From: Polyangiaceae bacterium
GTDB lineage: Bacteria > Myxococcota_A > Polyangia > Polyangiales > Polyangiaceae
Reading direction: 5' to 3'
NCBI GenBank assembly: GCA_019637295.1
Contig: JAHBVX010000002.1
Span: forward strand, 248,001-312,000
DNA length: 64,000 nucleotides
Under the pieces are notes generated by a model. The model did not search any database. It saw only the letters and a list, made by a program, of their open reading frames with translations, and had not been told where the DNA came from. Positions 34,770 through 64,000 of this stretch are shown here, piece after piece; within the stretch, counting starts at the first letter, position 1, and the number at the start of each line of letters is the position of its first letter. Both the position numbers and the translations under genes were made by a program.

Positions 34770-36494
34770 ATGCGCTTGCTCTGGGCTCTGATCGCGAACC
34801 TCATCCGGCTGCTGCTCCTGCCGCTGACCTGGCTCCGGCGCACCTTCGCCGCACCGCGCGGGTCGTGGCTGCTGCTCGAGCTCGACGGCGCCGTCGTCGA
34901 GATCGCCGGCCGGCGGCCCTTCTGGGACCGCCGACCGAGACCGCTGTCGATACAGCAGCTCCGTCAGGTGCTCGCGCTCGCCCGCGAGGACTCTCACGTC
35001 GTGGGGCTGGTCGTGGCGTGTGAGTCCTTCGACGCCGGCCCCGCGACGGCGGAGTCGCTGCGACAAGTGCTGGTGGAGTTTCAAGCGAGCGGCAAGCAGC
35101 TCGTGTGTTACCTGCCCCGGGGCGGTGGTGCGCGCGCGTGGTACCTGGCCAGCGCGGCTTCGCGCATCTTCGTCGGCACCGACGCGTTGGTCGAACCTCT
35201 CGGCTTCTCGATCCAGTCGCCCTACCTCGGCCAGCTGCTGGACCGAGTCGAGGTGGATCGAGAGGTGCTGGCGCGGGGACGGTTCAAGACCGCGGCCGAG
35301 CCCCTGCTCGAGCGCGCGATGAGCGAAGCACAGCGGGAGCAGCTAGGCGCGTACCTCGACGCGCTCTCGCAATCTCTCGTCGACGCGCTCGCGAGCAGCC
35401 GGGGAGTCACCCCGAGCGCTGCGCGCGAGTGGATCGACGGCGGACCCTGGACCGCGCGGGAGGCGCTCGAGCGCGGCATGTGCGACGCGGTGCTGCACGT
35501 CGACGAGGTCCCCACCACCCTCGATCCGAGCCGCAGCGACGGCGCGGTGCTCGTGCCGGTGTTCGGCTATGGCGCTCGCCGCGCCGTACGCTTCGTGCCC
35601 CTTCGCCCGAGCCCCCACCTGGCCGTCTTGCCACTGCAGGGCGCCATCGTGAGCGAGGCTCCCGGCTCCTTCGTTCCCATGGCGGAGGAGAAGGAGCTGG
35701 TGGAGGCCTGCCGCAAGCTGTGGGCGGACTCGCGAGTCCGTGGCGTCGTGCTCGTGGTCAACTCGCAAGGGGGCAGCGCGCTCGCGTCAGAGCGCATTCG
35801 ACGCGCCCTGGAGCGGCTTGGATCGAGGAAGCCGCTGGTGGCGTACCTGTCCAACGTAGCCGCGAGCGGAGGGTACTTGGCGGCGGTCGCCGCACCGACC
35901 ATCGTCGCGCAGCCGACCACACTGACCGGCTCGATTGGCGTCATCGCAGCGCGGCTGTCCGTGGGTCGTATCCTGGGGCGCGTTGGCGTCGCCGTGCAGG
36001 TCGAGAAGCGCGGCGAACACGCGGACATCTATTCTCCCGCGCGCACCACCAGCGAGTCGGAGCGCGCGCGGCTCGAGCACTACGTCGACGACGCGTACGA
36101 GTCGTTTCTCGCCGCCGTCGCCGCGGGACGGAAGCTGGAGCGAGACGCGGTGCACGCGGTGGCGCAGGGCCGGATTTGGTCGGGTCGGGACGCCAAGGAG
36201 CGCGGCCTGGTCGACCGCCTCGGTGGGTTCGACGCCGCGTTGGCCGCGCTGCGAGACCAGCTCGGGCCCAAGTCTCACGCCTGGGAGCCCAAGGTCGTGG
36301 GGCGGCGCCGCGGACCGTCGCCGCTCGCGCAGATCTTGGTCCGCGCGAGCGGCGTGCAGGTTCCGGCAGGGGCGCTCGGCAGCGTAGTCCGGAGCGGCGT
36401 CGGCGCTCTCGCACCGTTGCTCTTCGACTCCGAAGCCCGCGCCTACGCGCTGTGCGCGAGCGTGGCCGCACCGTATGACGCGGTGGACGGCTGA
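34770..36494 (+). CDS. sppA: Signal peptide peptidase SppA, long form
   Basis: This 574-residue S49 serine protease has two tandem domains. An N-terminal membrane anchor (LWALIANLIRLLLLPLTWL) precedes the domains. The general-base lysine is Lys173 in RGRFKTAAEPLLE and the nucleophile is Ser366 in NVAASGGYLAA, which gives a separation close to that in Escherichia coli SppA (Lys209, Ser409). The enzyme degrades cleaved signal peptides in the membrane. A C-terminal extension of about 60 residues lies beyond the second domain. It is convergent with the B12-controlled lipoprotein gene, with ten bases between stops. Confidence 0.94.
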   Translation: MRLLWALIANLIRLLLLPLTWLRRTFAAPRGSWLLLELDGAVVEIAGRRPFWDRRPRPLSIQQLRQVLALAREDSHVVGLVVACESFDAGPATAESLRQVLVEFQASGKQLVCYLPRGGGARAWYLASAASRIFVGTDALVEPLGFSIQSPYLGQLLDRVEVDREVLARGRFKTAAEPLLERAMSEAQREQLGAYLDALSQSLVDALASSRGVTPSAAREWIDGGPWTAREALERGMCDAVLHVDEVPTTLDPSRSDGAVLVPVFGYGARRAVRFVPLRPSPHLAVLPLQGAIVSEAPGSFVPMAEEKELVEACRKLWADSRVRGVVLVVNSQGGSALASERIRRALERLGSRKPLVAYLSNVAASGGYLAAVAAPTIVAQPTTLTGSIGVIAARLSVGRILGRVGVAVQVEKRGEHADIYSPARTTSESERARLEHYVDDAYESFLAAVAAGRKLERDAVHAVAQGRIWSGRDAKERGLVDRLGGFDAALAALRDQLGPKSHAWEPKVVGRRRGPSPLAQILVRASGVQVPAGALGSVVRSGVGALAPLLFDSEARAYALCASVAAPYDAVDG

Positions 36495-36504
36495 GGCCGG
36501 TGGT

Positions 36505-37842
36505 TCACGGCTGAACGACCACGCTGCCGGCGGCGAAGCCCAGGCTGCCGAGGAACGGATCGCTGAGCACCGTCGAGTGGTTCTGGGTCGCGGTGTCGTA
36601 GCGGACGACCTCCACGCTCGTGCCGCCTTCGAGCGTCTGGAACGACAAGCCGAGGAGGGACGTACCGGCCTCGAAGGTCGCGCCGGTCGGCACGGCCGCC
36701 AGCGACGCCCCCAGGCTGGACGACGTGGTCGTCCAGAGATGCCAGTACTCCGCGAAATTCGCGTCGAAGCCGTTGATGATGGCTTGGCCGCTACCGAGCA
36801 ACAAGAGCCGCGCCAGGTAGTCGCCGCTGGTCGGCAACAGCAGTGGGTCCTCGCTGAGGCCGCTGAGCGATACGGCAGTGACGCCGTACGCGCTGCGCGC
36901 CGTGCCGGCTTCGGAGGCCGCGAAGCAGCCCGCGGAGAGCACGAGCAACCGGTCGTTCACCGGGTCGAGCACCATGTCGACGGGGTTCTTCAGTGACAGG
37001 TCGACGCCGGTGCCCGGCGCCGACCCATTCAGATCGACCAGTGTCTTGCTGGTGGGGTCGAGGGCCAGGAGCAGCGCAGGCGCCGCCGAACACGCGAGCT
37101 CGTAGTTCGGTGGCGCGATGGTGGTGCGATCGATGCGGCCCGCGATGAAGTAGAAGCGATCACTCTTGGGATCGTACGTCGCGTTGCCGAGCTCGATCGC
37201 CCCGTCGCCGTCGCCCGTATCCAACAGGTCGTCGAGTACGATGGTCGACGCGATCTGTCCGGTGGTCAAGCTGGCCACGGCGATGCGGTTCACGTCGTAC
37301 AGAAAGACGAAGGCGTCGTCGCCGCTGGCGACCACGTCGGACGGGTTGGTGCTGCCGGTCCCGGTGGTGCCGATGGCCGCGTGGCCCACGTCGATGACAG
37401 GCGTCGCCGTCGTCTTGCCGACCACGACGACCTCGCTCGACGAGCGCGCCAACAGAAAGCCGCGACCTCGACTGGCCCGTGGCACCGCGTCGCCGTCGGT
37501 CACGTCCACGCGCTGGGTCACGGTGTTGGTGGCCAGATCGACCACCGCCAGCTCGGTGGTCGAGAAGAAGTCGGTGGCCGCCGTCAGCAGCAGCCCCGGC
37601 GCCAGTCCGCCGTCCGAGCCTCCGCTGCCCGAGCTGCCGCCGAGGCCTGCTTCCGAGCCTCCCGCGCCGCCGGACCCGCCGGACGCACTCGAGCCGCCGC
37701 TGCCGCCGGACCCGCCGGACGCCCCCGAGCCGCCGCTGCCGCCGCTCGCCCCACCGCCCAGGGGCTCGTCCTCACCACAGGCCCAGCTGCCAAGCGCCAC
37801 GGCCAGCGCCGCGACGCATCCACTCAATTGTCGGCTCTTCAT
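36505..37842 (-). CDS. Beta-propeller-like lipoprotein under cobalamin riboswitch, BtuG-like candidate
   Basis: This 445-residue protein has lipoprotein signal CVAALAVALGSWAC, then a Gly/Ser/Ala-rich linker of about 50 residues. The rest (about 380 residues) is built of repeated strand units: TELAVVDLATNTVTQRVDV, DAFVFLYDVNRIAVASLTTG, NATYDPKSDRFYFIAGR, DMVLDPVNDRLLVLSAG. This YncE-like pattern fits a seven-bladed beta-propeller. It is the only gene downstream of a complete B12 riboswitch about 200 bases before the ATG, which has GGAG suitably placed. In Bacteroides the B12-binding surface lipoprotein BtuG is also a beta-propeller. I infer a role in cobalamin capture; sequence homology to BtuG cannot be judged here. 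Confidence 0.88.
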   Translation of the reverse strand: MKSRQLSGCVAALAVALGSWACGEDEPLGGGASGGSGGSGASGGSGGSGGSSASGGSGGAGGSEAGLGGSSGSGGSDGGLAPGLLLTAATDFFSTTELAVVDLATNTVTQRVDVTDGDAVPRASRGRGFLLARSSSEVVVVGKTTATPVIDVGHAAIGTTGTGSTNPSDVVASGDDAFVFLYDVNRIAVASLTTGQIASTIVLDDLLDTGDGDGAIELGNATYDPKSDRFYFIAGRIDRTTIAPPNYELACSAAPALLLALDPTSKTLVDLNGSAPGTGVDLSLKNPVDMVLDPVNDRLLVLSAGCFAASEAGTARSAYGVTAVSLSGLSEDPLLLPTSGDYLARLLLLGSGQAIINGFDANFAEYWHLWTTTSSSLGASLAAVPTGATFEAGTSLLGLSFQTLEGGTSVEVVRYDTATQNHSTVLSDPFLGSLGFAAGSVVVQP

Positions 37843-38331
37843 GTTCTGCTCCGGCGTCCCACGCGACCCCGCGGGGGACGAATCGAAGGGCTCCCCTCGA
37901 GGGCGAGCCCTGGTTTTTGACGCCGAAGGGTGGAAGAGCGCGGTCCGGCGGCCGCCACGGGGCGAGCCGCTGCTCTCGCGCGCTCCGCACCCCGCGGAGC
38001 CTTGCCGAGTAGCCGGGGCCAAAATGGCCTCGACTGGCGTCACGGCCAGGTCTCCTGGCTCTGGATCGTCCTCCGGTGCGCCCTTCCCAGGCCGAAGCCC
38101 AGTGGTCACGCGCGCCGTCGTCCCCAGTTACAGTGGCGGGGGCCGCGCCGGATTCACACCGGCTTCCCTTGACCGTGACGTGTCCGAACCCGCCTCGAGC
38201 GAGGTCGATACCCGGCCACTGCTATCACGACGCTCGCGAGACCTCCAAGCCCAAACTCCCCGGACGCAGGCTTGGATTGCAGGCTGGCGCCAAATCGACG
38301 ACGCTAACGCCGCGCCAAACGACGGACCCCG
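37843..38331. other. Intergenic region (489 bp) between lipoprotein and kinase genes
   Basis: This divergent spacer carries the riboswitch and its expression platform on the minus strand. On the minus strand the sequence downstream of the aptamer has hairpins GGCCA-TTTT-TGGCC, GCTCCGC/GCGGAGC, GGGCTC/GAGCCC and CCCCGCGGGG, any of which could be the ligand-dependent switch. Promoters for the two divergent genes were not identified with confidence. Confidence 0.5.
38030..38195 (-). promoter_or_regulatory. Cobalamin (B12) riboswitch
   Basis: Reading the minus strand, all landmark elements of the cobalamin aptamer appear in order. GGGAAGCCGG then GGTGTGAATCC is at 38168-38150, CCCGCCACTG at 38140-38131, CCACTGGG at 38105-38098, TGGGAAGG at 38089-38082, and the B12 box AGCCAGGAGACCTGGCC at 38060-38044. 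The GCCGG/CCGGC pairing around GTGTGAAT forms the usual hairpin. Class boundaries are approximate. Several stem-loops lie between the aptamer and the ATG (for example GCTCCGC paired with GCGGAGC near 37980-38000), but none has a U-run, so control may be at translation rather than termination. Confidence 0.93.
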
Positions 38332-40026
38332 ATGGCTCAACCTTCGCGAAATGCTCCCGCCCTGTCCCAGGGTTCCGTGGTCAACGACCGCTACGAGATC
38401 CGACAGAGCCTCGGCAAGGGTGGCATGGGCGAAGTGTTCTTGGCCTACGACCGGAGCACCCAGCAACCGGTAGCGCTCAAGATCGTGCGCGAAGAGTCGC
38501 GCATGCCGGGCGATGACGAGGCTCTTCGGCAGGAGCTGCTGCTCGCCCGCTCGGTCAGTCATCCCAACGTGTGCCGCGTTCACGATCTCGCGCCCAGCCC
38601 GTGGGGCCCCATCCTGGTGATGGAGCACATCGCGGGCCAGACGCTGCACACCCACATCCGCCGCCGCAAGGCGCAGGGTGGGTACACTTCCGACGAGTTC
38701 AGGAAGATCGCGAGCGAAGCGGCGGCGGGTCTCGCGGCAATTCATGCGCAAGGGCTCGTTCACGGGGACCTCAAGCCGGGCAACGTGATGGTGACCAACG
38801 ACCGCGCCATCATCCTCGACTTCGGCTTCGCGCAGGAGCGCGCGCGCCTCTCGGCGCGCCGGCCAGGCGCGCCGCCGGACGGGGGCACCCCCAACTACAT
38901 GGCTCCCGAGCGCCTGCGCTCTGGCGGGGCCAGCATGGAGGACGACATCTACGCTCTCGGCCTCACGTTGTGGGAGATGTGGACCTGCCGAGTCCCCGAG
39001 CCCGGCTATCGGCCGCGTGCCAAGCCGATGCGATCGCAGATCATGTTCGACGTGCCAGCTGGTCTCAGCGTCGACGAGGTGAAGCAGGTGTTTCGTTGCT
39101 TGAGCGACGACGCCGAGCTGAGACCTGGCGCGCGGCACCTCAGATTTTTCAATCCCTCGGCGCTGACCACGAGCCAGCTCTCGATCCCCCGCGAGCGGCT
39201 CTCGCCCGGCCCGCCGCTCGGCCGCAGCGTGTCCGAGGCGTTCGTCTCGGGAGCCCAGTCCCTGCTACTCACCTACGCCAGCAACGCCCCCGACGCCGCC
39301 GGCCGCCTGTATTCCCTCGACAAACCGGTGATGACCATCGGTCGGCGCAGCAACCAGGACCTGGAGATGCCCGAGGCGACCGTCAGCGGCGCGCACGCGG
39401 TGCTTCGCTGGCAGGCAGGGTCGTGGGCGCTCGAGGACACGGGCAGCACGAACGGGACGTACGCGGACCACAGCTTCGAGCGCAAGAAGTCCGTCGCGCT
39501 ACTGCACGGCGGCGAGGTTCAACTCGGCGAGTGTCGCATCAAGCTGGTGAGCTTCCATGACGGGTCGCCCCAGCACCAGAAGGCGCGCGCGTACCTGAGC
39601 CAGCGGGATGGACTCACTGGCCTGCTGCAGCGCGACAACTTCCTGCGCTGGCTCAAGGACGATCTGGTCTTCGCCGAGTGGGACGGGGTACCCCTGGCTG
39701 TCGCGCGTTACCATGTGCGCGGGCCGAACCGCCATGTGAGCGACCGCCCCACCATTCTCGAGATGCTCGCGCTGCGGCGAGCTGCACAGCGCGTGATTGA
39801 GCTCACCGAGATGTTGCTCTTGAGCGTCATCCCCGTCACGGCGGGTCGCATCGGTCCGCTCAAGTTTGCGATCGCGATGACGGGGCCGAGCGTGGAGGAG
39901 GCGCGGCACGTCGTCGAGCAGGTGGTCGCGCAAGTCCAGGGTCTGATGCCGGAGTCACTCGATTTGGCGGCCACGCTCGTCAAGGCCGAGCCCGGGCAGC
40001 CCGCCGAATCCCTGCTGGAAGACTGA
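38332..40026 (+). CDS. Ser/Thr kinase fused to FHA and a degenerate GGDEF-like domain
   Basis: This 564-residue protein has a kinase domain at about residues 20-270: loop GKGGMGEVFLAYD, Lys in VALKIV, catalytic loop HGDLKPGNVM (His144-Gly145-Asp146, so a non-RD kinase), DFGFA and APERL. An FHA domain lies at about residues 315-405 (MTIGRRSNQDLEM, SGAHAVLRW, TGSTNGTYAD). From about residue 424 the sequence begins RDGLTGLLQRDNFLRWL, which is how GGDEF domains start, but no GGDEF signature follows, so it is probably not a cyclase. No membrane helix. It is divergent from the B12-controlled lipoprotein and lies 14 bases before a small anchored protein. Confidence 0.92.
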   Translation: MAQPSRNAPALSQGSVVNDRYEIRQSLGKGGMGEVFLAYDRSTQQPVALKIVREESRMPGDDEALRQELLLARSVSHPNVCRVHDLAPSPWGPILVMEHIAGQTLHTHIRRRKAQGGYTSDEFRKIASEAAAGLAAIHAQGLVHGDLKPGNVMVTNDRAIILDFGFAQERARLSARRPGAPPDGGTPNYMAPERLRSGGASMEDDIYALGLTLWEMWTCRVPEPGYRPRAKPMRSQIMFDVPAGLSVDEVKQVFRCLSDDAELRPGARHLRFFNPSALTTSQLSIPRERLSPGPPLGRSVSEAFVSGAQSLLLTYASNAPDAAGRLYSLDKPVMTIGRRSNQDLEMPEATVSGAHAVLRWQAGSWALEDTGSTNGTYADHSFERKKSVALLHGGEVQLGECRIKLVSFHDGSPQHQKARAYLSQRDGLTGLLQRDNFLRWLKDDLVFAEWDGVPLAVARYHVRGPNRHVSDRPTILEMLALRRAAQRVIELTEMLLLSVIPVTAGRIGPLKFAIAMTGPSVEEARHVVEQVVAQVQGLMPESLDLAATLVKAEPGQPAESLLED

Positions 40027-40040
40027 GCGCAGGCGGCCTT

Positions 40041-40712
40041 ATGGCGCGTCCGTCGTTTCCAGTTCCCAGTGAGCCCAGCCTTCGCCGCCTGGGTGTGGGC
40101 GGGGGTGGTGGTGGCGACCGGCCGCTGCGCGCCCAGCTCGTCGTCGCCATCGTCGTCGGTCTGGTCCTGCTCGCGGTACCTCTGTACCTGTGGCGTCGTC
40201 CCAGTGGTACGGAGAACGCGCCGGCGACGGCGTCCGCGGATGCCCTCGCCGCCTCGCTGGCGGCCGACGCCGCAGCCGCCGCGGCCGCCGCCGACGCCGC
40301 AGCCGAGAACGAGCGGGTGCGACTGTCACCGCCTCAGCGGGTGAAGTGCGCCGCATCGGCCACGGCTCGCGGCCAGGAGGGCGATCTGTGCGACCGACTC
40401 GAAGCGTTCGAACAGGCGCTCGCACGAGCGATCCGCGAGAACGTCGACTGTGCGCCGCGCACCGGCAAGCAGGGGACGATCAACTACGTCCTCACCGTCG
40501 ACTTCGCGGCCAAGCGCGTGCACATGTTCCCAGGCAAGAGCGGTGAGTGGAAGGGACCGCTGGCACGCAAGGCCGCCGAGTGCGTCAAGCGCGCCATGGT
40601 CGTGCCGGACTGGGACTCGGTGAAGCACCAGTACCGCTTCTACATGATCGCGCAGCTGGCGACCTACCCGCCGCCGGGCATGTCGGGTGGCTCCGTGCCG
40701 CTCTTCGAGTGA
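40041..40712 (+). CDS. Membrane-anchored hypothetical protein
   Basis: This 223-residue protein has a short Gly-rich cytoplasmic N-terminus, one membrane helix at about residues 32-50 (LVVAIVVGLVLLAVPLYLW), an Ala-rich coiled segment of about 40 residues, then a folded domain of about 120 residues with three to four cysteines. Segments such as ENVDCAPRTGKQGTINYVLTVDF and KAAECVKRAMVVPDWDS are beta/alpha and recall the small TonB-C-like or AgmX-type fold seen in myxobacterial envelope proteins; that likeness is weak. It is 14 bases after the kinase-FHA gene, so co-expression is probable. Its last 49 bases overlap the end of the convergent gene at 40664. Confidence 0.7.
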   Translation: MARPSFPVPSEPSLRRLGVGGGGGGDRPLRAQLVVAIVVGLVLLAVPLYLWRRPSGTENAPATASADALAASLAADAAAAAAAADAAAENERVRLSPPQRVKCAASATARGQEGDLCDRLEAFEQALARAIRENVDCAPRTGKQGTINYVLTVDFAAKRVHMFPGKSGEWKGPLARKAAECVKRAMVVPDWDSVKHQYRFYMIAQLATYPPPGMSGGSVPLFE

Positions 40713-41302
40713 GCTGCCGGCAGCACGGGAAGCTCGAGGGTCCCCGCGAGCTTCAGCGCGGCGAGCAGCCGGGCCAGCACTGGCCGCCGCTGTCCGGGGG
40801 CGAGGTCATCGCGAATCGCTGCCAACGCGATCGCGAACTGGCCCAGGTCCGCGGCGGTCAACACGCGATCGAGCTCCTCCCGAAGGCGCCGCGCGAGCAG
40901 TGGCGCGCGCCCGTCGGTCGAGATGGAGAGCGTAACGGGCCCGTGGCGCGTGACCGCCACGTGATGAAAGCTGCTGCTCCCATCCGGCTGGTCCACGGCG
41001 CAAAACAGGCGCTGGCGCCGCGCGCACTCCGCGCCGAGCTCGGCTCGCAGTCGCGCGTCGACGTCTGCGAGGATGACGAGCCAATGGTCTCGGATGTCGG
41101 TGGCGCCGGCACCGCGCCGCTCCAGTGTCGCTCCGCACTCGGACACGGCGCTCAGCAGCTCCGCACCGGGCTCGTCCGCGATCACCGTCACGACCGCGCC
41201 GACGGCGCGCAGGTTACGGACCCGCAGGGCCGCCTCGCCGCCGCTTCCAACCACCAGACAACGCCGACCGCCGAGCAGCAGCATCACTGGCAGGCCCGTC
41301 AC
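40664..41302 (-). CDS. Precorrin-2 dehydrogenase/sirohydrochlorin ferrochelatase (CysG N-terminal type)
   Basis: This 212-residue protein matches the N-terminal half of CysG (Met8p type). It oxidises precorrin-2 with NAD and may insert iron to give siroheme. The NAD-binding site is RRCLVVGSGGEAALRVRNL, followed by VTVIADEP, CAVDQPDGSSSFHHVAV, and TLSISTDGRAPLLARRLREEL. The methyltransferase half of CysG is absent. It starts at a GTG whose GTGA overlaps the DUF4390-like gene. Its 3-prime end overlaps the convergent anchored-protein gene by 49 bases. Confidence 0.9.
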   Translation of the reverse strand: MTGLPVMLLLGGRRCLVVGSGGEAALRVRNLRAVGAVVTVIADEPGAELLSAVSECGATLERRGAGATDIRDHWLVILADVDARLRAELGAECARRQRLFCAVDQPDGSSSFHHVAVTRHGPVTLSISTDGRAPLLARRLREELDRVLTAADLGQFAIALAAIRDDLAPGQRRPVLARLLAALKLAGTLELPVLPAAHSKSGTEPPDMPGGG

Positions 41303-61490: not shown

Positions 61491-64000
61491 TCACAGCTCC
61501 ACGTTCAGGTTGGCCAGCAGCGTCCGACCAGCCTGGGGCAAGGTCAGCATGCGAAACTCCCCGCTGACGGGCACGGACTGGTGCCAGTCGGCGATGTTGT
61601 AGGCGCCGAGGTTATAGCGAACCTTGCCCGCCATGACCTCGCCCGAGAGCACCAGGTCCCAGGTGACGGCTCCGTCCGTCCGGCGCTGGCGCGGGTCGCC
61701 GGTCGTCTCGTGGCGATCGTAGCGACCACTCTCGAGCGTGAGCCGGCTCATGGCCATGATGCTGCGCCCGACGATGGGGACCGCCCCCTTGACGGCCGCC
61801 AGGTGTGTGGGCGAGTTCGGCAGTCTGCGCAGCTCCGCGTCGTTGTCCACGTACTCGGAGCGCTGCAGCGAGTACTGCGCGCCGACCATCCAGCCATCCC
61901 GGTACTCGCGCCGGACCTCCGCTTCCGCGCCGGTGGTGAGCACCGGCGAGGACGAATTGACGAGCACCAGAGGATCGGTGTCCGTGCCCTGACCGCGCCC
62001 GACCACCAGACCCGTGACGTAGTTGGCGAACACCGACGCAGTGCCCGTGACAGCGGCGGAGAAGCGGTGCGTGTGCTCGAGCTCACCCGAGACCACCCGC
62101 TCCGGCTCGAGGTTGGGGCTCGGCGCCTGCACGGCGCTCTGGTAGAAGATCTCGTACACGCTCGGGGCGCGGAAGGCGCTGCCGCCCAAGAGCTTGGTCA
62201 CGCCGCTGTCGTAGGGCAGCGCGATCAACGCGGCGCGCGGGTTGAACGCGCTGCGGCTCACTTCGCCGAAGGAGAAGTCCCACACGAAGGCGTCGTAGCG
62301 GGCGCCGACGTGGGCGCGGAGCTTCTTGCCCAGCTCCGCGTCCGCCACGGCGTAGGCGCCGCCGACGAGGTAGCTGTTGCGCTCGTCGGGCAGGTACACA
62401 CCGGAGTCGTCCTCGCCTTTCATGCTCGCGCGAAAGTGCCGCTGCCCCTCGGCGCCGAGGGTGAGGGTCAGGGCCTGCATCGGCTGGAGCACGAACCGCT
62501 GCTCGAGCCCCACCCACTGGCCCACGTAGCTCTCCAGTGCCAGACCGCCATCGGCGTCGTCGTAGGGTGCGCCGCTCTCGAACAGGTACACGTTGCCATG
62601 GGCGCGGGTCAGGGACTGCACTTCCTTGCCGAGCTTGGGCTCGAAGCGAGCCTCGAGGTAGCCGCGTTGGTCCTTGAAGAAGCTGCGTGAGTCCCCGAAC
62701 AGGGTCTCGTACTCGGCGGTGGGCAGCGTCTTTCGCCGATAGTGCCAGAGCCACTGCAGCGTCAGATCCTTCCACCACACGCGACCGGTGGCCGTGCCCA
62801 GCTTGGTGTCGTCCACGCCGCGAGCGTTGCCGTCGAGCCCGGACGGGTCGTTCAAGTACTCCTGGAAGTAGAAGTCCCGTCCGGCGCCGCGTCCGCCGGA
62901 GACGCTGGCCCAGACGCCGGAGTCCTTCCCCAAGCGGTGGTAGGCCATCACGCGCCCGCGCTGCATGCTGTACTCCACCGCCGAGGCGCCGATCTCGAGG
63001 CGATTGTTCTGATCGCGCCCGTGAGTCACCACGTTGATGACGCCGAAGAACGCGCCCGTACCGTACAGGGCCGAGCCGGGACCGCGCACGACCTCGATCC
63101 GGTCGACGTCCTCGAGGTCCGTGCGGCCCTCGAAGCCCGGGAAGGACTGATACAGGATGTTGTCGTTGTACGGGTGCCCGTCGTACAGGATGAGCACCTT
63201 GTTGCCATAGTCGCCGGGGCGTGAGAAGCCGCGCACGCCGATGGTGCTGTAGCTGCGATCGTCCGAGAGGTAGATCCCGCGCACGCCGCGCACCGCCTCG
63301 GCGATGGTGGGATAGCCCATCTGGCGCAGCTCCTGTTGGCCGATGATGGTCACGGAGGAGGGCGCCTCCTCGACGCGCTGGGCGGCGCGCGAGACGGCGC
63401 TGACCTCCGCTTCGCGGGCCAGCTCCAGGCTGATCCGCTGCTGCCGATCCACCAGGACCACGACGTCCCGCTCGATGGGGCGAAAGCCCGCCAGCGAGAC
63501 CCGCACGCGATGACGCCCTACGGGCAGAGTGAGCACCGCCGGGGTGAAGCCCTTCGGCGTGCCGTCCACCTCGATCAGCGCGTCCTTGAGATCCGTGGAC
63601 AGCACCAGGGTGCCGGTGAGCGCCGCCATCACGGGCCGCACGATCTGCGCCCGGTTGGCTTGCACCACGACGTCCACGTCCGCCGTGCGAAACCCCGGTC
63701 GCGTGAGCACGAGGCGCCGCGTGCCTGGGGGCAAGCGAACCTCCGCGGGCGCCACCGCCAGCACCTCGGCTCGTTCACTGCCGACGCGCACCTCCGCGCC
63801 GTCGGCGCCCTCGATGCGCACCGTGCCCAGGATGGGGGTGAGCTCGAGGGACACGGACTTCTTCTCGCCGGCCTTGATCTCGAGGGTCTGCGAGCGCGCG
63901 TCCTTGTGGCCATCCAGCGACACGATCACCGTGTACTTCCCGGGGGCGAGTCCGAGCGCGCGCGGGGTGGAGCCCCGTGCGCCGAGATCCTTCCGGTCGA
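61491..64000 (-). CDS. TonB-dependent receptor with N-terminal PEGA-like repeats, partial
   Basis: At least 836 residues are seen and the N-terminus lies right of the window. Three PEGA-like beta repeats of about 70 residues come first (for example LGLAPGKYTVIVSLDG, LPPGTRRLVLTRPGFR, LPVGRHRVRVSLAGFR). A plug domain follows (APSSVTIIGQQELRQMGYPTIAEAVRGVRGIYL, then IEVVRGPGSALYGTGAFFGVINVVT), and a barrel of about 550 residues ends the chain at NLNVEL. PEGA-like repeats on a TonB receptor are unusual; carboxypeptidase-like CarbopepD domains are more common there. Ligand unknown; the TonB box, if any, lies outside the window. Confidence 0.9.
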   Translation of the reverse strand, partial: DRKDLGARGSTPRALGLAPGKYTVIVSLDGHKDARSQTLEIKAGEKKSVSLELTPILGTVRIEGADGAEVRVGSERAEVLAVAPAEVRLPPGTRRLVLTRPGFRTADVDVVVQANRAQIVRPVMAALTGTLVLSTDLKDALIEVDGTPKGFTPAVLTLPVGRHRVRVSLAGFRPIERDVVVLVDRQQRISLELAREAEVSAVSRAAQRVEEAPSSVTIIGQQELRQMGYPTIAEAVRGVRGIYLSDDRSYSTIGVRGFSRPGDYGNKVLILYDGHPYNDNILYQSFPGFEGRTDLEDVDRIEVVRGPGSALYGTGAFFGVINVVTHGRDQNNRLEIGASAVEYSMQRGRVMAYHRLGKDSGVWASVSGGRGAGRDFYFQEYLNDPSGLDGNARGVDDTKLGTATGRVWWKDLTLQWLWHYRRKTLPTAEYETLFGDSRSFFKDQRGYLEARFEPKLGKEVQSLTRAHGNVYLFESGAPYDDADGGLALESYVGQWVGLEQRFVLQPMQALTLTLGAEGQRHFRASMKGEDDSGVYLPDERNSYLVGGAYAVADAELGKKLRAHVGARYDAFVWDFSFGEVSRSAFNPRAALIALPYDSGVTKLLGGSAFRAPSVYEIFYQSAVQAPSPNLEPERVVSGELEHTHRFSAAVTGTASVFANYVTGLVVGRGQGTDTDPLVLVNSSSPVLTTGAEAEVRREYRDGWMVGAQYSLQRSEYVDNDAELRRLPNSPTHLAAVKGAVPIVGRSIMAMSRLTLESGRYDRHETTGDPRQRRTDGAVTWDLVLSGEVMAGKVRYNLGAYNIADWHQSVPVSGEFRMLTLPQAGRTLLANLNVEL

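Follow-up and report, generated by a model that had tools for sequence, protein, structure and literature searches.

The window, a stretch of 64,000 nucleotides of Polyangiaceae DNA, encodes a lipoprotein of 445 residues that is probably a distant BtuG-type corrinoid-capture protein of Myxococcota, placed behind a cobalamin riboswitch of its own and apart from the receptor gene. A reading made earlier from the sequence only had proposed that this protein captures B12, and that interpretation is supported by the present analysis. Corrinoid binding, surface location and hand-over to a receptor are parts that we infer; because binding has this standing and the gene does not adjoin a receptor gene, the protein is referred to as BtuG-type rather than as a proven BtuG. 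The computed support consists of the riboswitch, its conserved linkage to the gene, a predicted propeller with BtuG as its nearest fold, a related group of proteins (the sister group A3) found partly in strings with receptor genes, and a host that has B12 enzymes and in which corrin-ring methylases went undetected.

RF00174 was the sole Rfam match in the whole window (cmscan; 38169-38048, minus strand, 87.1 bits, E 4.2e-20). The gathering score of this model is 31.5, so the window riboswitch is over the curated cut-off, and the B12 riboswitch first read at 38168-38044 of the minus strand is recovered with ends agreeing to within 4 bases. The alignment covers positions 45-169 of the 189-position model and leaves its outer part unmatched. 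The same match was recovered again in the search of the whole genome, whose other RF00174 match lies ahead of genes for a different lipoprotein and a TonB receptor. The features of the locus are as follows.

38048..38169, minus strand: cobalamin riboswitch aptamer (RF00174; cmscan, 87.1 bits)
37843..38047, minus strand: leader of 205 nt, the interval between the aptamer and the ATG start codon
36505..37842, minus strand: BtuG-like propeller lipoprotein, 445 aa, ATG at 37842 (ORF, homologues, switch linkage)
37777..37842, minus strand: signal peptide and lipobox, residues 1-22 (conservation of Cys22)
37762..37776, minus strand: acidic patch after Cys22, residues 23-27 (Asp25 invariant in 13/13; resembles the Bacteroidota surface-export signal)
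37603..37776, minus strand: Gly/Ser-rich tether, residues 23-80 (sequence; pLDDT below 50 over residues 1-80)
36508..37602, minus strand: propeller domain, residues 81-445, 365 residues (AlphaFold2 domain model; BtuG gives the best PDB matches)
37204..37212, minus strand: D-x-D, residues 211-213, a possible metal-binding loop (conservation)

The downstream neighbour SppA (34770-36494, plus strand) is convergent and the upstream neighbour, a Ser/Thr kinase (38332-40026, plus strand), is divergent, so that 36505-37842 stands alone behind RF00174, as had been claimed. A longer frame with a GTG start (534 aa) runs into the aptamer and was set aside for the ATG at 37842, given that the signal peptide and the conserved Cys22 fix the position of the start. 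The scan for terminator-like sites over 36400-38400 gave three (0.9 expected), all of them within the ORF and none in the leader. In folding, the segment 37826-38047 was more stable than shuffled sequences (z −2.69), and the aptamer with the early leader was no better than shuffled sequences (z 0.10).

The Pfam scan of the 445-aa protein at E values up to 10 returned no family, hence no YNCE or related propeller model and no DUF5074 (PF16819) either. The NCBIfam scan gave one weak match far under the cut-off, and phmmer against PDB matched mainly the tether. Cys22 is invariant in all 13 close homologues and in 21/21 aligned sequences once the sister group A3 is added. The lipobox of the window protein, SWAC, is a weak fit; a lipoprotein signal was called in 13/13 homologues by our own rule, which is wide enough to accept SWAC. 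Both Asp residues of the D-x-D are invariant in the 13 homologues and nearly so among the 21 sequences that include the sister group, and in the window protein they may form a metal-binding loop.

The group of the window protein is further referred to as A1. Asp occurs at position +4 after Cys22 in 13/13 A1 proteins vs 22/62 control lipoproteins, and at least two acidic residues are found at +2 to +5 in 12/13 vs 13/62, respectively. The 62 controls are lipoproteins called by the same rule in the fetched loci, other switch-linked proteins included. The same acidic count was reached by 5/8 A3 proteins; in lipoprotein group A7, where the rule called 10 of 12 members, six reached it, and in the further lipoprotein group A2, with nine of 12 called, two did. 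Given the wide lipobox rule, the switch-linked controls and the kinship of the 13 proteins, the acidic enrichment in A1 is no more than suggestive of an export signal. The lipoprotein export signal of Bacteroidetes occupies the position right after the lipidated Cys, according to PMC6143338, and by analogy the acidic patch may export the window protein.

AlphaFold2 models built from four input sequences were moderate in quality, both for the full-length protein (mean pLDDT 60.0, pTM 0.65) and for the domain (mean pLDDT 68.8, pTM 0.69). When the domain model was compared by Foldseek with 350,542 PDB chains, BtuG took ranks 1-9 and 11-13, rank 10 being the YVTN propeller 1l0q (best E 4.7e-10; TM 0.65/0.71 for 8bmz_A). 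With VIA-align 2 the top 11 matches of the domain model were BtuG (Z 24.4-23.4, 297-308 residues, 3.4-3.8 Å), at 11-15% identity over the structural alignments. BtuG chains are hence the best PDB matches of the domain model in both programs, a ranking that refers to models of the window protein alone, from 4 sequences. BtuG also headed the list for the full-length model (Z 19.3), with cytochrome cd1 level with it (18.8). YncE/YVTN propellers resemble the window protein in overall fold and match it weakly by sequence; the fold rank of YncE is lower (Z 21.4 vs 24.4), but 1l0q is close at Z 23.0, tied with most BtuG rows. We know of no link between these propellers and B12 switches.

Profile searches against PDB placed A1 and A3 differently. 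For A1 the matches were 1l0q (7.5e-6) and YncE (1.8e-4), with BtuG far weaker (E 2.5). For A3 BtuG came first: the best nine sequences had E 7.4e-5 to 1.5e-3, seven of them being BtuG by name (8bai, 3dsm, 8bmy, 8bmx, 8bn0, 8okv, 8p97) and the other two, 8baz and 8puj, which match alike, being named 'surface layer protein' and 'YncE family protein'. The joint profile of A1 and A3 was weaker than A3 alone, with the designed propeller 6rej (4.9e-4) just above BtuG (8.6e-4). The sequence-only reading had described an unrelated-looking propeller. Both AlphaFold2 models bear out the propeller; to call it simply unrelated-looking needs correction, BtuG being first by fold and A3 matching BtuG by sequence. 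Since the domain model ranks BtuG first and A3 matches BtuG, a distant common origin of the window protein and BtuG, reached through the A3 bridge and the moderate models, is likely and is preferred to a chance analogue.

Homologues were searched among the proteins of 59 genomes, the host genome G000 included. Low-complexity rows matching only the tether were dropped, and matches extending past residue 200 were kept. This yielded 23 domain-level homologues in 16 of the 59 genomes. Directly behind RF00174 are 14 of them (13 of the 15 loci scanned, plus the window), as the sequence-only reading had led one to expect; eight are without a switch (six copies in G034 and two further copies in G021), and the one in G013 starts where its contig ends. 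Five loci, namely four switchless ones and that of G013, were rescanned permissively, and no riboswitch was found. In a draw of 282 genomes from the phylum the family profile matched 26 genomes at E up to 1e-15, copy numbers there being lower bounds, as six candidates at most were scored per genome. In 14 genomes of the draw E was below 1e-40, all of them from the same taxonomic family as the genome of the window. Five of the 14 were new, four with switch-linked copies and one (G109) without. In total, a switch-linked copy is kept in 18 of 20 testable genomes, and the identity of homologues to the window protein goes down to 24-27%. By simple arithmetic for 7.65 Mb and 2 switches, about 1 in 10,000 is expected by chance for a switch within 700 bp upstream on the same strand. 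In G034, four tandem copies of the family occupy 4994-10644 of contig C133 (L070), which has no detectable switch, and the two others are located elsewhere in that genome.

RF00174 matches over the cut-off numbered 116 in 54 of the 59 genomes, and their surroundings were classed by our own profiles built from the same loci, using same-strand frames within 6 kb downstream, which are not proven operons. The uptake class was defined as A1, A2, A3, A7, the PGPDF lipoprotein family or a TonB receptor. At least one gene of this class was found behind 77/116 switches and a propeller-type lipoprotein (A1, A2 or A3) behind 49/116. A ribonucleotide reductase gene was present behind 13/116, and 24/116 had no gene of the defined classes. 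Across the 116 switches, none of the A1, A2 and A3 genes shares its switch with the ribonucleotide reductase class.

Iterative searching with the window protein as seed extended to groups A3 and A2. A1 aligns with A3 at E 9.4e-38 over 391 columns (hhalign), signal peptide and tether included, and with A2 at E 3.4e-14 in a profile comparison. A BtuB-type TonB receptor gene is located behind the same switch as A3 at 3/10 switches (L105, L092, L086), the string at L105 consisting of A3, PGPDF, A2 and the TonB receptor. For A2 a TonB receptor gene follows the same switch at 16/26, and for A1 at 0/14 within 6 kb. Five of the 14 genomes with switch-linked A1 also have A2 beside the receptor, and in three (G000, G001, G014) the receptor string lacks A2. 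Among the remaining ones, G025 is cut by the 6-kb limit and five show no receptor behind a switch. Given these mixed layouts, A1 is not simply the missing BtuG: some genomes have it as an extra factor, whereas in others no further switch-linked propeller was found.

Other lipoproteins were observed behind these switches. A7 is the uptake-class gene at L101, L089, L087, L096, L100, L104, L135, L138, L145, L150, L158 and L169 and, with L084, stands behind 13/116 switches; three members scanned had no Pfam match. G025 is the only one of the 59 genomes with both A7 and A1 behind switches. A relationship of A7 to A1 was rejected, as hhalign aligned the signal peptide alone; the PDB search with A7 gave nothing below E 0.28. 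PGPDF lipoproteins (A9; L002:1744-2538 and relatives) lie behind 27/116 switches, often adjoining a TonB receptor gene; a weak match to the LIC_13355 lipoprotein family stays below the cut-off (E 7.3e-12). Their assignment to DUF4465 was rejected: eight members had no such Pfam match, the best being a weak F5/8 (E 0.056), and there was no PDB match. Two further switch-linked lipoproteins, L146:706-1941 and L139:779-1774 (both plus strand), are YncE-like propellers. The former is over the Pfam cut-off for DUF5074 (31.7 vs 27.2 bits) and also for three other propeller models, one of which scores higher. The latter is over the cut-offs for YNCE and Cytochrom_D1, not for DUF5074.

The host genome (7.65 Mb, 98.47% complete) encodes MetH and methylmalonyl-CoA mutase, both over their cut-offs, and has 22 B12-binding-domain matches, 20 of them over the cut-off. 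For MetE there is only one candidate frame, of 376 aa, which PF01717 matches in two partial pieces (56.3 and 21.5 bits). De novo synthesis of the corrin ring needs several more enzymes of the TP_methylase family than the two genes present, one of the CobA-HemD type and the other of the RsmI type; one family search of this 98.5% complete assembly detected no corrin-ring methylases. Given the B12 enzymes and the two TP_methylase genes, neither of which is for the corrin ring, the host probably scavenges B12 and seems unable to make it. Its TonB receptor gene is located about 180 kb from the window lipoprotein gene, behind the other B12 switch, and in NCBIfam the product comes nearest to TonB-B12, at a score far below the cut-off (E 1.3e-31). 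That second switch precedes, in a layout common to G001 and G014, genes for a PGPDF lipoprotein and the TonB receptor, and no propeller gene follows it. Further uptake parts include one FecCD permease and two Peripla_BP_2 proteins.

These parts may act together as follows. At low cellular cobalamin the switch would permit expression of the gene, a direction taken from general knowledge of this riboswitch family. The product would be lipidated at Cys22 and delivered to the outer membrane, where the Gly/Ser tether would extend the seven-bladed propeller outward, presumably at the cell surface. The propeller would bind corrinoids and pass them to the BtuB-type TonB receptor, supplied in trans from the distant locus. 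In a B12-replete cell the switch would, by the same expectation, shut the gene off.

The A1 gene is a transcription unit separate from the receptor gene, all 14 switch-linked A1 copies stand behind switches that no receptor gene follows within 6 kb, and A2 occupies the place at the receptor in five of those 14 genomes. Such an arrangement would also suit a protein for corrinoid binding or remodelling, for corrinoid storage or for transport on shed vesicles, with no receptor contact; vesicle-borne B12 lipoproteins of Bacteroides are described in PMC12751083. We consider this role unlikely. The sister group A3 is found in receptor strings at 3/10 switches, and BtuG, the closest fold, acts as a lid of BtuB according to PMC10404256.

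Alternatively, the propeller might serve another ligand needed at B12 shortage, e.g. a metal, haem or a related tetrapyrrole, or a protein partner. YVTN/YncE propellers come first for the A1 profile alone, the cd1 nitrite reductase ties with BtuG on the full-length model, and other switches in these genomes, 13/116, are followed by ribonucleotide reductase genes; but A3 and A2 occur partly in uptake strings, no A1, A2 or A3 gene is on a reductase switch, and both fold lists of the domain model are headed by BtuG, which leaves this explanation improbable. A degenerate or chance leftover of a switch before a protein unconnected with B12 is hardly credible: the aptamer model is unmatched in its outer part, no terminator was found in the leader and the copies in G034 and G109 are switchless, but the window aptamer scores 87.1 bits and the switch is retained before a homologue in 18/20 testable genomes at identities as low as 24-27%.

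The preferred reading, a BtuG-type capture lipoprotein, rests on several likenesses to BtuG1-3 of Bacteroides (PDB 3DSM, 8BAI, 8BMX). Both are lipoproteins with a seven-bladed propeller (predicted here) under B12-switch control (switch action likewise predicted), the host has B12 enzymes with corrin-ring methylases undetected, BtuG gives the top fold matches, and the A3 sister group matches it by sequence. In contrast to BtuG, the window protein has no DUF5074 match, shares 11-15% identity in the structural alignments, carries a Gly/Ser tether, belongs to another phylum and is encoded away from a receptor gene (0/14 A1 copies within 6 kb). In PMC6143338, a BlastP search over 313 gut strains is reported to have found BtuG homologues absent outside Bacteroidetes. 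BtuK1 (PDB 9S6C), BtuH and BtuJ (DUF4465) of Bacteroides are similar in being accessory B12-binding lipoproteins from switch-controlled loci. BtuK1 is among the fold matches of the full-length model, with Z 15.9, well below BtuG; BtuJ differs in being a jelly roll (PMC13398666), and the window protein has no DUF4465 match.

Titles and abstract starts of the literature on B12 riboswitches, BtuG and B12 lipoproteins in Myxococcota or Polyangi*, with subscription papers and preprints outside the scope, contained no description of the window protein. According to PMC13398666, DUF4465 occurs in Myxococcota, and 40% of the larger cluster is found beside PF16819 propellers; BtuG-type propellers in this phylum may therefore be partly foreseen there. 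More broadly, Myxococcota may possess a B12-scavenging surface system of their own, parallel to that of Bacteroidota. It would comprise the A1/A3 and A2 propellers, PGPDF and A7, families without a Pfam name as judged from the members scanned, under separate switches and some with an acidic export-like signal, A1 being a stand-alone trap that works in trans with BtuB. This wider proposal is tentative, the case for it falling just short of balance. Lipoprotein-assisted B12 capture has so far been worked out chiefly in gut Bacteroides. If the proteins described here bind corrinoids, this strategy extends to Myxococcota, several unnamed protein families acquire a function open to testing, and dependence on scavenged B12 becomes readable from such genomes.

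Two other genes of the window may be mentioned. A siroheme synthase N-terminal domain of the precorrin-2 dehydrogenase type is encoded at 40664-41302 (minus strand), 2.5 kb from the switch, and a like gene is located about 3 and 7 kb from the homologues in L067 and L078, possibly by chance. A TonB-dependent receptor is encoded at 61491-63929 (minus strand); the match of its plug region to TonB-B12 is weak, at 61.3 bits far below the cut-off, and its N-terminal part carries, by our own reading, PEGA-like repeats.
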